Assembly: GCF_001435755.1 (NCBI RefSeq)
Contig: NZ_AZFI01000001.1
Location: 1-58,587, forward strand
DNA from: Ligilactobacillus acidipiscis DSM 15836
GTDB taxonomy: Bacteria > Bacillota > Bacilli > Lactobacillales > Lactobacillaceae
Reading direction: 5' to 3'
Length of the DNA: 58,587 nt
This document shows positions 50,855 to 53,707 of this stretch, piece after piece. The notes below the pieces were generated by a model. That model made no database searches. It was not told where the DNA came from and saw only the letters and a list, made by a program, of their open reading frames with translations. Numbering within the stretch: position 1 is the first letter of the stretch; every line of letters starts with the position of its first letter. The translations under genes were made by a program, and so were the position numbers.

Positions 50855-51061
50855 CTATTGTTTTTTAGTATCAGAAATCTTTAAATCGCCAGCTTCGACC
50901 TCTTCTAAAGCACGTCCAACATTTTTCTCAGAAGTATATTCACCTAATAAAGGCATTGCTCCATCATCAAGTTCATGTGCACGTTTAGCAGCCAGCATCA
51001 CCAATGAGTAACGAGAATCTACTTGATCTAATAGCTTGTCTACTGAAGGATATAAAATCAT
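50855..51061 (-). CDS. rpoZ: RNA polymerase omega subunit
   Basis: Small subunit that stabilises beta-prime. The 68-residue sequence has [31 protein letters not shown], the conserved helix. It overlaps the gmk stop by four bases (ATGA), the usual gmk-rpoZ coupling. Confidence 0.96.
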
Positions 51062-51678
51062 TTTAAAGCATCTCCTAATTGTTTTTTATAGTCTGGTAAG
51101 AAACGTTTTACACGCCAACGTTCAGCTCGGATAATAGTTTTGATCTTTTCAGCCGCAGTTGGGACCTGATCATTAACAACAGCATAATCATAATTCTGCA
51201 TCATTTCTATTTCACCCACAGCTTGGTGCATTCGCTTATCGATGGTTTCTAAGTCATCAGTACCGCGATGAACGATCCTTTGCCGCAATTCCATTAAATC
51301 AGGCGGGGTCAAGAAAATAAATAAACCGTCCGGGACTTTCTCTCGAACTTGCATTGCACCTTTGACTTCAATTTCTAAAAAGACATCCTTACCGGCATCT
51401 AACATCTCATTCACATATTTTAAAGGTGTTCCATAATAGTTGTCAACGTACTGTGCATATTCAAGCATTCCGCCAGTTTTGATCTCATTTTCAAATTCTT
51501 TTTTTGAGACAAAATAATAGTCCTTACCATTGACCTCTCCTGGACGCATCTTTCTGGTAGTCATTGAAATTGAATAATCAAAATTATTTCCTGGTTGTGA
51601 AAAGATCTCTTTTCTAACGGTTCCCTTCCCCACTCCAGATGGGCCCGAAAGCACGATCAACATTCCTCTTTTAGACAT
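51058..51678 (-). CDS. gmk: Guanylate kinase
   Basis: Phosphorylates GMP to GDP. The 206-residue protein has the P-loop [17 protein letters not shown] (near 10-26) and the GMP-binding stretch [21 protein letters not shown]. It begins [12 protein letters not shown] after TTGAGGAGTTTTAGTGC. It heads the gmk-rpoZ pair and diverges from the small ORF at 52006. Confidence 0.97.
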
Positions 51679-51712
51679 GCACTAAAACTCCTCAAATAAA
51701 TATTTACCTTCT

Positions 51713-51741
51713 ATCATGCACTTTTTACTTATTTTTTTCAA
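51713..51741 (-). promoter_or_regulatory. Candidate gmk promoter
   Basis: On the minus strand TTGAAA, 17 bp, CATGAT, about 35 bp upstream of the gmk start. Moderate match. Confidence 0.5.
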
Positions 51742-51845
51742 GTACGACAAGCAAGAAATGGCAAGAAAATTTTATTTTTCTCATGATTTTTTCAAAAACT
51801 AGTCTATAACATCTCTCGGAAAATAATATGTTTAAATGATGAGCG

Positions 51846-51855
51846 AATGTACATT
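51846..51855. promoter_or_regulatory. Perfect 10-bp palindrome upstream of the SOS-type promoter
   Basis: AATGTACATT is an exact inverted repeat located about 44 bp upstream of the -35 of the small ORF at 52006 and between two divergent promoters. It may be a binding site for another regulator; no identity can be given. Confidence 0.3.
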
Positions 51856-51894
51856 TTTAGAACAACAAGAAATATTTGCGAAAAACAAAACTTT

Positions 51895-51920
51895 GAACTT
51901 GCGTTCGGGAACTTTTGTTC
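51895..51920 (+). promoter_or_regulatory. Two tandem LexA/DinR-type SOS boxes
   Basis: GAAC-TTGC-GTTC (51895-51906) and GAAC-TTTT-GTTC (51909-51920) each match the Gram-positive LexA box core GAAC-N4-GTTC exactly, 14 bp apart centre to centre. The first overlaps the -35 and the second fills most of the spacer up to the -10. A third copy with one mismatch, AAAC-AAAT-GTTC, lies at 51940-51951, just downstream of the expected transcript start. The arrangement would give tight repression by LexA. Confidence 0.85.
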
Positions 51921-51926
51921 TATAAT
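51899..51926 (+). promoter_or_regulatory. Promoter of the small ORF at 52006
   Basis: TTGCGT (51899-51904), 16 bp, TATAAT (51921-51926, perfect -10). The transcript would start near 51933, leaving a leader of about 73 bases before the ATG. Confidence 0.8.
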
Positions 51927-52005
51927 GGTAAATGTAAGCAAACAAATGTTCAACCGATCGCTTTATTATTTTTAGAAATGTTTTTAAAAATCAGGAGGTA
52001 AAAAC

Positions 52006-52170
52006 ATGAAATATCATTTCATTGCACTCTTACGAGCAAAGGCCTTTTTCTATTTTCAACTTTTACTAACAAAATGGAATACATTTTTCGATCCAGCACA
52101 AGTCTTAGAACAAGAACAAATTCCTTCAATGCCTGAATTTCAGATCGATTCATTCATTAGAAAATCGTAA
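52006..52170 (+). CDS. Small protein of unknown function, probably SOS-induced
   Basis: I do not recognise this 54-codon ORF. It has a strong ribosome site (AGGAGG, seven bases before ATG), a perfect -10 and two exact LexA-type boxes upstream, and a terminator downstream, so it looks real despite its size. The N-terminal half is hydrophobic and aromatic (AFFYFQLLLTKWNTFF, residues 13-28) with a few basic residues, suggesting a membrane-associated or amphipathic helix; the C-terminal half is acidic and Gln-rich with two prolines and ends FIRKS. No cysteine is present. It converges on glnA. By control and location it may be a functional counterpart of damage-induced division inhibitors such as YneA, SosA or SidA; it shows no LysM motif. 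That role is inference. Confidence 0.75.
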   Translation: MKYHFIALLRAKAFFYFQLLLTKWNTFFDPAQVLEQEQIPSMPEFQIDSFIRKS

Positions 52171-52288
52171 ATTGATCCGCATTATTTTCAAAAAACAAAT
52201 CACTGCGATCTCCATCAGTGGTAGTTTTAAATCAACGATCAGAACAGCAAGTTCAAGCGATTATCCTTTCAAATTAAAAAAAACATCC

Positions 52289-52327
52289 TAAAAAAAAGCA
52301 ACTCATTTAAATGAGTTGCTTTTTTTA
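52289..52327. terminator. Bidirectional terminator between the small ORF and glnA
   Basis: A perfect 22-bp palindrome (GCAACTCATTT / AAATGAGTTGC, 52298-52319) is flanked by seven or more A's on the left and T's on the right, so it works for both converging transcripts. The stretch 52171-52288 before it holds no further ORF that I can support. Confidence 0.95.
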
Positions 52328-52340
52328 CGACATTTTATAA

Positions 52341-53684
52341 TTAATATTGTTCGAAATATTGTTTTCTTTCCCATTGTGAAACATCCTGGCGATATGCTTC
52401 CCATTCGATTCGCTTACCTTCAAGAAAACTTGCAGCTAAGTGTTCACCAAGAGAATTCAAAATAACATCATCCTTTTTCAATGCTTTTAATGCATTATGC
52501 AATGTAGAAGGAAGGTCTACAATATTATTCGCATGTCGCTCTTCTTCCGTCATAACATAGATGTTCCGGTCGATTGGTTTAGGGGGTTCGATTTTATTAC
52601 GTACACCATCTAGTCCGGCTTCCAGAATAGTTGCAACGGCTAAGTATGGATTAGCAGTTGAATCAACACTGCGTAATTCCAAACGAGTTGAACCTCCACG
52701 TGCGGCTGGTACACGAATCAAAGGAGAACGATTATGTCCTGACCAAGCCACATAAACAGGTGCTTCATAGCCTGGTACTAACCGCTTATATGAATTAACG
52801 ATCGGATTAGTAATGGCCGTAAAATTACGAGCATGCTTTAATAATCCGCCTAAAAAGTACATCGCGTCTTCTGAAAGTCCAGATTCAGCAGATGCATCGT
52901 AAAAGACGTTTCCACTGTCATTGAATAATGACATATTAACATGCATTCCAGAACCATTAATACTGGTTAATGGCTTTGGCATAAAGGTTGCATGTAAGCC
53001 ATGTTTGCGTGCTACTGTTTTCACTACAAGCTTGAATAATTGAATGTTATCAGCAGCATGTAAAGCATCAGCATACTTAAAATCTACTTCATGCTGGCCA
53101 GGAGCAACCTCATGGTGAGAGGCCTCAACATCAAAACCTAAACGTTCAAGTTCAAGAACGATCTCGCGCCGACAATTTTCGCCTAAGTCAACGGGAGCTA
53201 GGTCGAAATAGCTTCCCTGATCATTCAATTTAGTAGTCGGATCATTCGTAGTTGGATCCAGCTTAAATAAGAAAAATTCAGGTTCAGTCCCGATGTTAAA
53301 ATCAGTATAGCCCAGATCTTTCATTTCACGCAAAACTCTGATCAAATTGTTTCGTGGATCGCCCATAAAAGGTGTCCGGTCAGAATTATATACCTCGCAA
53401 ATCACCCCAGCTATTTTACCGTACTCACTACCCCATGGTAAGATAGTCCAAGTTGACAGATCTGGGTACAACCACATGTCACTTTCTTCAATTCTTACAA
53501 AACCATCTATAGAAGAACCGTCAAACATAATTTTGTTATCCAACAACTTGTCTAACTGGCTAACTGGAACTTCAACATTTTTGATCGTGCCATACAGATC
53601 TGTAAACATTAACCGTAAAAACTGAACATTCTCATCCTTAACAATTCGGCGAACATCATCTTTAGTGTACGTTGGTTTAGCCAT
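52341..53684 (-). CDS. glnA: Glutamine synthetase, type I
   Basis: Makes glutamine from glutamate, ammonia and ATP. The 447-residue sequence (one reading of the start; 445 from the one chosen) has the GSI beta-grasp [44 protein letters not shown] and [11 protein letters not shown] motifs, and [14 protein letters not shown]. The Gram-positive type (GSI-alpha) lacks the adenylylation site and is feedback-inhibited with GlnR as partner. The ATG used follows AAAGGAGTATGCAA. It lies 23 bp after glnR in one operon. Confidence 0.97.
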
Positions 53685-53707
53685 TTGCATACTCCTTTGT
53701 TTTTGAC

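Follow-up and report, generated by a model that had tools for sequence, protein, structure and literature searches.

The window, a stretch of 58,587 nucleotides from Ligilactobacillus acidipiscis DSM 15836 (contig NZ_AZFI01000001.1), carries a 54-codon open reading frame (ORF) that is very likely the truncated 5' remnant of a conserved SOS-type gene, a grading that covers the conservation and the truncation jointly. Sequence comparisons indicate LexA-type control and conservation of the gene across much of the Lactobacillales. Our explanation as a whole, which we regard as probable, is that the ORF is what remains of a LexA-type-controlled gene of Lactobacillales, and that the intact product of this gene is a damage-tolerance accessory factor.

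The window ORF and its promoter

The ORF lies between gmk, which is divergent from it, and the convergent glnA gene. The features of the locus are as follows.

51058–51678, minus strand: gmk, divergent neighbour (Pfam Guanylate_kin)
51895–51906, strand not applicable: putative LexA-type operator 1, exact, GAACTTGCGTTC; read directly, with the same box in the same-genus relatives L072, L073 and L074
51909–51920, strand not applicable: putative LexA-type operator 2, exact, GAACTTTTGTTC; abuts the −10 hexamer, position conserved across the family
51921–51926, plus strand: −10 hexamer TATAAT; read directly, conserved in the promoter set
51940–51951, strand not applicable: putative operator 3, one mismatch, AAACAAATGTTC; 3' of the −10 hexamer, position conserved in 76 of 80 promoters
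51993–51998, plus strand: ribosome-binding site AGGAGG, read directly
52006–52170, plus strand: 54-codon ORF, very likely the 5' remnant of the family gene (ATG at 52006, stop at 52168–52170; ORF translation and profile match)
52160–52288, plus strand: putative out-of-frame 3' remnant, matching residues 94–135 of the L. pobuzihii ortholog (44%) and ending in KKTS versus RKTS in related sequences
52291–52326, strand not applicable: perfect loopless 18+18-nt inverted repeat, a probable two-way terminator shared with convergent glnA
52341–53690, minus strand: glnA, convergent neighbour (Pfam Gln-synt); arrangement seen in Ligilactobacillus and g30

The two exact GAAC-N4-GTTC boxes, the TATAAT hexamer, the AGGAGG site, the ORF and the palindrome were all found where the initial annotation had placed them, and the third box is the one-mismatch copy that it described. 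The best readable −35 element is TTGCGT at 51899–51904, 16 nt 5' of TATAAT, and a sigma-70 scan called no plus-strand promoter at this locus. The palindrome had also been called a perfect terminator. Its symmetry is indeed perfect, but a simple terminator scan of positions 51680–52400 returned no sites, so the terminator function is a reading of the repeat.

Exact GAAC-N4-GTTC boxes are rare in the 2.33-Mb genome, with 7 places versus 41 for the reversed pattern, and two of the seven sit 14 nt apart in the window promoter. Since the boxes are rare genome-wide and this promoter recurs before the orthologs described below, comparison indicates that the exact boxes of the window are not due to chance. 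By contrast, once a single mismatch is allowed, boxes become frequent: there are 641 in the genome, and the window has 24, where shuffled sequences averaged 22.1. The third box is therefore uninformative when considered alone. It nevertheless fits a conserved pattern of second operators, as judged from the 80 promoters compared below.

The genome encodes a LexA protein (E 8.2e-23, contig C223), and roughly 60 nt 5' of the probable start of its gene lies a one-mismatch site, GAACATTAGTTT. The proximity of lexA to glnA known from Listeria and Bacillus, which had been invoked for the window, is not found in this genome, where lexA lies on contig C223, beside a gene read by eye as recN, for which a Pfam check gave no match at E 1e-10. 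One of the other five exact boxes in the genome is upstream of a UvrX-type polymerase gene (Pfam IMS), two lie inside genes read by eye as gyrB and mreB, and the remaining two (L004 and L006) adjoin no gene recognisable by eye as SOS. In the case of the UvrX-type gene (L008; contig C428, 7124–8419, minus strand), the exact LexA-type box, GAACATTAGTTC, precedes the probable start by about 40 nt.

Distribution of the family

When 301 Lactobacillaceae genomes were searched by tblastn with the 54 residues, 44 of them gave weak matches (E≤1). Among the loci retrieved, five were immediately preceded by an exact box, and these are orthologs: they are divergent beside gmk, with TATAAT at the box and products of 101–122 aa. 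The same residues found no relative in genome_contigs. A profile built from four orthologs (A2) placed the family in 230 of 397 Lactobacillaceae genomes and 26 of 40 genera at E≤0.01. A second profile (A3) was built from 47 members of a set of 54 proteins, with six near-copies and L069, the start of which is uncertain, omitted; the set itself excluded the window copy (L093) and L094, which was considered noise. The window ORF matched both profiles (A2, E 9.4e-8; A3, E 1.7e-7), neither of which contains it. With A3, matches were obtained in 77 of 121 genomes and 25 of 40 genera at E≤0.001, and in 143 of 295 Lactobacillales genomes at E≤0.01; these counts include some YolD-like proteins encoded beside UvrX (G105, in which the best match is the gene beside UvrX, and L122), and the weak matches among the 77 and the 143 were only partly checked.

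The family proteins are about 99–136 aa long, with an N-terminal helix, a QMPxFQ motif and a predicted WYL/Sm-like barrel. The expectation that the gene would be missed by current annotation was borne out at the level of family models, as none from Pfam, NCBIfam or PHROGs matched it convincingly; the best of the weak matches was to phrog_12716 (function given there as unknown; E 3.2e-4, 4 of 47 members). The best value in a search of PDB sequences was E 0.57. In the literature searched, the scope of which did not extend to LexA-regulon supplements (e.g., that of PMC3616900), no paper other than PMC2174512 was recognised as describing the gene.

In PMC2174512, L. plantarum lp_1611 is described as a gene of unknown function with a LexA-DinR motif, the expression of which rises about 32-fold with hydrogen peroxide and which adjoins the opu genes in the opposite direction. 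In all four of the g38 loci inspected, the family gene is accompanied by gmk and a permease gene (one of the permeases was Pfam-checked) in the arrangement of lp_1611, with the same opposite orientation beside the opu genes. We consider lp_1611 to be a probable ortholog, on the grounds of neighbourhood and regulation rather than sequence. Its strong induction by peroxide fits the SOS-type control inferred for the family; the window copy differs from it in being truncated. A universal LexA regulon of 13 operons in the Lactobacillaceae is given in PMC3616900, and the LexA-linked L. plantarum genes in the main text of PMC10886434 do not include an lp_16xx gene.

Conservation of the switch

An exact box was present upstream in 51 of the 54 family loci (L039–L092), and gmk was divergent in 52 of them, L074 and L089 being located at contig ends. 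As L039–L068 are the best search matches and L069–L088 and L117–L136 were hand-picked, these box counts do not correspond to random samples. A set of 71 named gmk loci was chosen by gmk similarity alone (from 80, with nine titled as other groups omitted), and the ORF was found in 54 of these loci at E≤0.001, with an exact box in 45 of the 54 and a box with at most one mismatch in all 54. In 100 letter shuffles of the gmk loci, the mean number of loci with an exact box was 0.2 and the maximum was 2; the shuffle control applies to exact boxes and not to one-mismatch boxes, and some of the stretches extend up to 1 kb. A doubtful 55th locus (L233, E 0.27) was kept out of the 54 and of the promoter set.

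No exact box was found in the first 700 nt of the 16 gmk loci without the ORF, two of which (L168 and L174) hold only 120 and 253 nt. In ten Ligilactobacillus loci (L172, L179, L182, L184 and L186–L191), the gene was absent, as was any exact box within the first 700 nt upstream of gmk. These genomes seem to have lost the gene together with its switch, unlike the situation in the window.

A comparison of 80 distinct exact-box promoters, including that of the window and with identical promoters counted once, revealed a very regular architecture: a TATAAT hexamer (at most one mismatch) begins 12–14 nt after the box start in 78 of 80, and a second box with at most one mismatch lies 27–35 nt downstream in 76 of 80. 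These spacings suggest operators on both sides of the −10 hexamer, a pattern that the third box of the window fits. At E≤0.001, LexA itself was detected in 120 of the 121 family genomes, in 117 of them above the cut-off; its presence was therefore dropped as a discriminating test.

Boxes were also found in other families of the Lactobacillales, where the gene has different neighbours. All six f2 loci and the f5 loci L119 and L121 had an exact box, and all five f7 loci had one with a single mismatch. In families f2, f5 and f7, the neighbour is mostly DegV, a transporter permease or an enzyme of the PLD type, read by eye as cardiolipin synthase, with one example of each checked with Pfam and the rest assigned by eye. 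At L122, the remaining f5 locus, a YolD-like gene adjoins a polymerase gene. None of the eight f3, f4 and f9 relatives (L117, L118, L120 and L124–L128) had an exact box, and two had a one-mismatch box; some lineages may thus keep the barrel protein outside SOS control. The retention of the switch across differing neighbourhoods is the best evidence that the switch matters. Sequence comparison thus supports the proposal, already made for the window, of LexA-type control through boxes conserved in relatives.

Truncation of the window copy

The window gmk gene is 97% identical to those of Ligilactobacillus pobuzihii and Candidatus L. excrementavium. Positions 52006–52158, in the ORF frame, correspond to residues 1–51 of the 135-residue L. 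pobuzihii ortholog (63%), and residues 94–135 are matched by window DNA in another frame (44%). Residues 52–93 are absent, the number of nucleotides lost overall is not divisible by three, and the 3' remnant stops at the same point as the related genes. The four aligned relatives are intact, and the related species carry uninterrupted copies. What the window copy retains is thus limited to helix 1, the MPEFQ motif and the beginning of helix 2, and it has no complete barrel domain. The initial annotation had taken the 54 residues to be the whole gene. This does not hold, since the orthologs are about 99–136 aa long and the window copy has been cut by a frame-changing deletion; the longer relatives, together with the position of the deletion junction at the end of the ORF, rule out the 54-codon ORF as a complete conserved gene. 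Conservation in relatives, which had been proposed as a check, was obtained for the ancestral gene and its boxes but not for the 54-codon form.

The deletion is known from one draft assembly in 457 contigs, and the four aligned relatives are intact, so an assembly error in a species with an intact gene could be envisaged. We regard this as highly improbable: the contig is 58.6 kb long, no direct or dispersed repeats were seen at the site (the search itself covered inverted repeats only), and the dropping of about 125 nt inside a gene would be unusual. A search for the deletion junction in viral contigs gave no matches, which says little.

The break was read as recent because the 3' remnant is still open, and not on the basis of dN/dS ratios. 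The codon tests conflict with each other. The comparison of the window with related sequences gave dN values of 0.25–0.27 over 50 codons, with dS saturated (very high or undefined). For the intact pair L073 and L074, dN was 0.033 and dS 0.036 over the first 51 codons, versus 0.048 and 0.225 over the whole gene. Since dN approximates dS over the first 51 codons in this pair, the front part of the gene may be weakly constrained even when the gene is intact.

These values bear on the possibility that the 54-residue product is a working SOS micropeptide, shortened from a longer protein and acting, for example, as a division inhibitor of the YneA/SosA/SidA class. The promoter, the ribosome-binding site and the start codon are intact, the helix and the MPEFQ motif are retained, dN against related sequences is 0.25–0.27 with saturated dS, and the N-terminus is the most hydrophobic among the 54 sequences compared (1.21). 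However, the ORF ends at the deletion junction, and the ancestral 3' part persists out of frame behind it, which is what a recent break would leave; dN is about equal to dS in the corresponding part of the intact relatives; no sequence reaches the usual score for a membrane segment; and there was no Pfam match. We consider a working micropeptide to be improbable, though a little less so than an assembly error. The product of the window copy is, instead, most likely non-functional, given that most of the second helix and barrel strands 1–3 have been lost.

YneA, SosA and SidA are SOS division inhibitors. The hydrophobic N-terminal half of the ORF had been thought to fit membrane action, but none of the 54 sequences reached the threshold of 1.6 in a hydropathy test with a 19-residue window over the first 45 residues, the window copy having the highest value. 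Membrane action, as judged by hydropathy, is not supported and was dropped. No LysM or other curated match over cut-off was obtained in Pfam or NCBIfam. The family resembles the YneA/SosA/SidA class in its small product and LexA-type control; it differs from this class in having no hydropathy membrane segment and no LysM match, in not being located beside lexA and in its predicted fold. We found no support for a place in this functional class, and the part lost from the window copy is the predicted WYL/Sm-like barrel.

Predicted fold

For the L. pobuzihii protein, AlphaFold2 gave a model with a mean pLDDT of 78 and blocks of 83–94 at residues 41–110, consisting of a helix at residues 6–27, a helix at 44–57 and then five strands; a first model, of another member, had a pLDDT of 69. 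The closest solved structures are small barrels, namely a designed one, Hfq and the WYL domains of DriD, PafBC, CapW and BrxR, with Z scores of 8.0–8.6 over 60–73 residues (about 43–115). A Z score near 8 is middling, and the designed barrel scored equally high. The identity in the rows with Z≥8.0 was 5–17%, and other folds remain compatible with the VIA-align rows. The Foldseek E values were weak, the best being 0.0048 (0.011 for the second model, to an unrelated GatDE chain). On these models, the family fold quite probably consists of an N-terminal helix followed by a WYL/Sm-like (YolD-type) barrel. No second domain was found in the family, unlike the WYL/Sm-like proteins that it resembles at residues 43–115. 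YolD has been placed in the WYL superfamily in PMC4012209.

The proteins with matching WYL domains (DriD, PafBC, CapW and BrxR) regulate transcription, a similar barrel occurs in the Rho inhibitor Rof/YaeO, and the authors of PMC2174512 suggested that lp_1611 is a regulator. The stand-alone barrel might, on this evidence, regulate or inhibit transcription, termination or the cell cycle rather than serve as a repair accessory factor. We consider such a role to be rather unlikely, as scans of family members revealed neither a DNA-binding domain nor a second domain of another kind.

Relationship to YolD and UvrX

Alignment of the 47-member family alignment with 32 YolD-type proteins by hhalign gave a probability of 91, an E value of 1.1e-6 and a score of 39.3, against at most 15.7 in 30 column shuffles. 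Of 33 YolD-type proteins, 32 were used, and L096 slipped past the motif filter. Two members of the YolD set, L095 and L122, are from Lactobacillales, one of them found with the family profile itself; without these two sequences, the probability was 88, the E value 2.9e-6 and the score 37.2 (14.9 at most in 100 shuffles). The overlap is limited to the barrel half (family columns 44–109, YolD columns 46–110), and the family is, on this alignment, distantly related to the C-terminal half of YolD. PF08863 had no match in the genome of the window species, and a single match among the 47 members (E 0.11), none being over the cut-off. The UvrX of this species is perhaps without its usual YolD partner; the PF08863 model overlooks diverged YolD-like proteins, which bears on the zero count.

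Proteins linked to UvrX have an N-terminal half of the DRG..KW/LPEH type that is absent from the A3 alignment. Five genes beside UvrX (L247–L251, from G013, G093, G115, G119 and G105) encode a front half of the DRG..KW...SDH type, and the family profile matched their products over the C-terminal half (E 4.6e-8 to 1.4e-6). As Pfam YolD touches only two of the five, below the cut-off (E 0.0016 and 0.038), these proteins were termed YolD-like. By sequence, the UvrX-adjacent genes appear to encode diverged YolD-like proteins of Lactobacillaceae that mostly escape Pfam YolD. Four of the genomes (G013, G093, G115 and G119, but not G105) have a strong family gene elsewhere (E 3.6e-24 or better).

No association between the family gene and UvrX was detected among 121 genomes (62 with both, 15 with the gene only, 33 with UvrX only and 11 with neither; Fisher p 0.50; G045 and G078, with weak or partial UvrX matches, scored as UvrX-negative), and a role as a UvrX partner, as judged by co-occurrence, was dropped. 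The examined loci did not include a UvrX operon with the family gene, the neighbours being gmk, DegV and others. The lack of association weakens a role as a polymerase partner.

YolD has been proposed as the UmuD counterpart of UvrX polymerases, and staphylococcal YolD is described as encoded apart from UvrX, yet co-induced with it (PMC6511836). The family could, by analogy with the staphylococci, be a displaced YolD, that is, a small UmuD-like subunit of a UvrX-type Y-family polymerase encoded elsewhere, and both the hhalign relationship and the genome of the window species, which has a UvrX-type gene with an exact box but no PF08863 match, are consistent with this possibility. However, co-occurrence with UvrX was not seen, the DRG..KW N-terminal half is missing from the family, and G013, G093, G115 and G119 have a strong family gene in addition to a separate YolD-like gene beside UvrX. 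We consider a displaced YolD unlikely, slightly more so than a regulator. The gene was also dropped as a plain YolD, given the lack of PF08863 scores over the cut-off, the alignment over the barrel half only and the lack of co-occurrence with UvrX. The family thus resembles the YolD family (PF08863; YolD and YqjX of B. subtilis) in its SOS-type control and in the alignment of the C-terminal helix and barrel, but it lacks the N-terminal DRG..KW half, has no UvrX operon in the examined loci, remains below the Pfam cut-off and coexists with UvrX-linked YolD-like genes in the same genomes.

Proposed role and implications

We propose that LexA would sit on the operators of the promoter and block RNA polymerase, and that its cleavage after DNA damage would strongly switch on the gene. 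The intact product, small and probably cytosolic, would combine an N-terminal helix with a WYL/Sm-like (YolD-type) barrel and, in damage tolerance, would bind either single-stranded DNA or a DNA polymerase, in a way that loosely follows the proposal made for YolD. Taken separately, its role as a damage-tolerance accessory factor is a tentative suggestion. The window species keeps an intact promoter, and its product is without most of the second helix and strands 1–3 of the barrel; the part lost is probably the part that does the work of the protein.

It is conceivable, with similar reserve, that the intact family is an undescribed stand-alone SOS effector of Lactobacillales, in which a polymerase-free YolD-type barrel, with a conserved double LexA operator, has taken on a new job in the damage response, and that the Ligilactobacillus of the window recently lost it. 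This job might be to sense single-stranded DNA or a damage signal, or to steer a polymerase or the cell cycle.

The interest of these observations rests more on the intact family than on the broken copy of the window, which illustrates that the gene can break while its switch persists. The SOS response of lactobacilli has largely been inferred from Bacillus, and the family, with its very regular LexA-type promoter, its presence in 25–26 of the 40 genera sampled and no family model matching over cut-off, is likely to be a missing player in this response. Its polymerase-free YolD-type barrel could provide a setting in which the barrel's own function could be tested.
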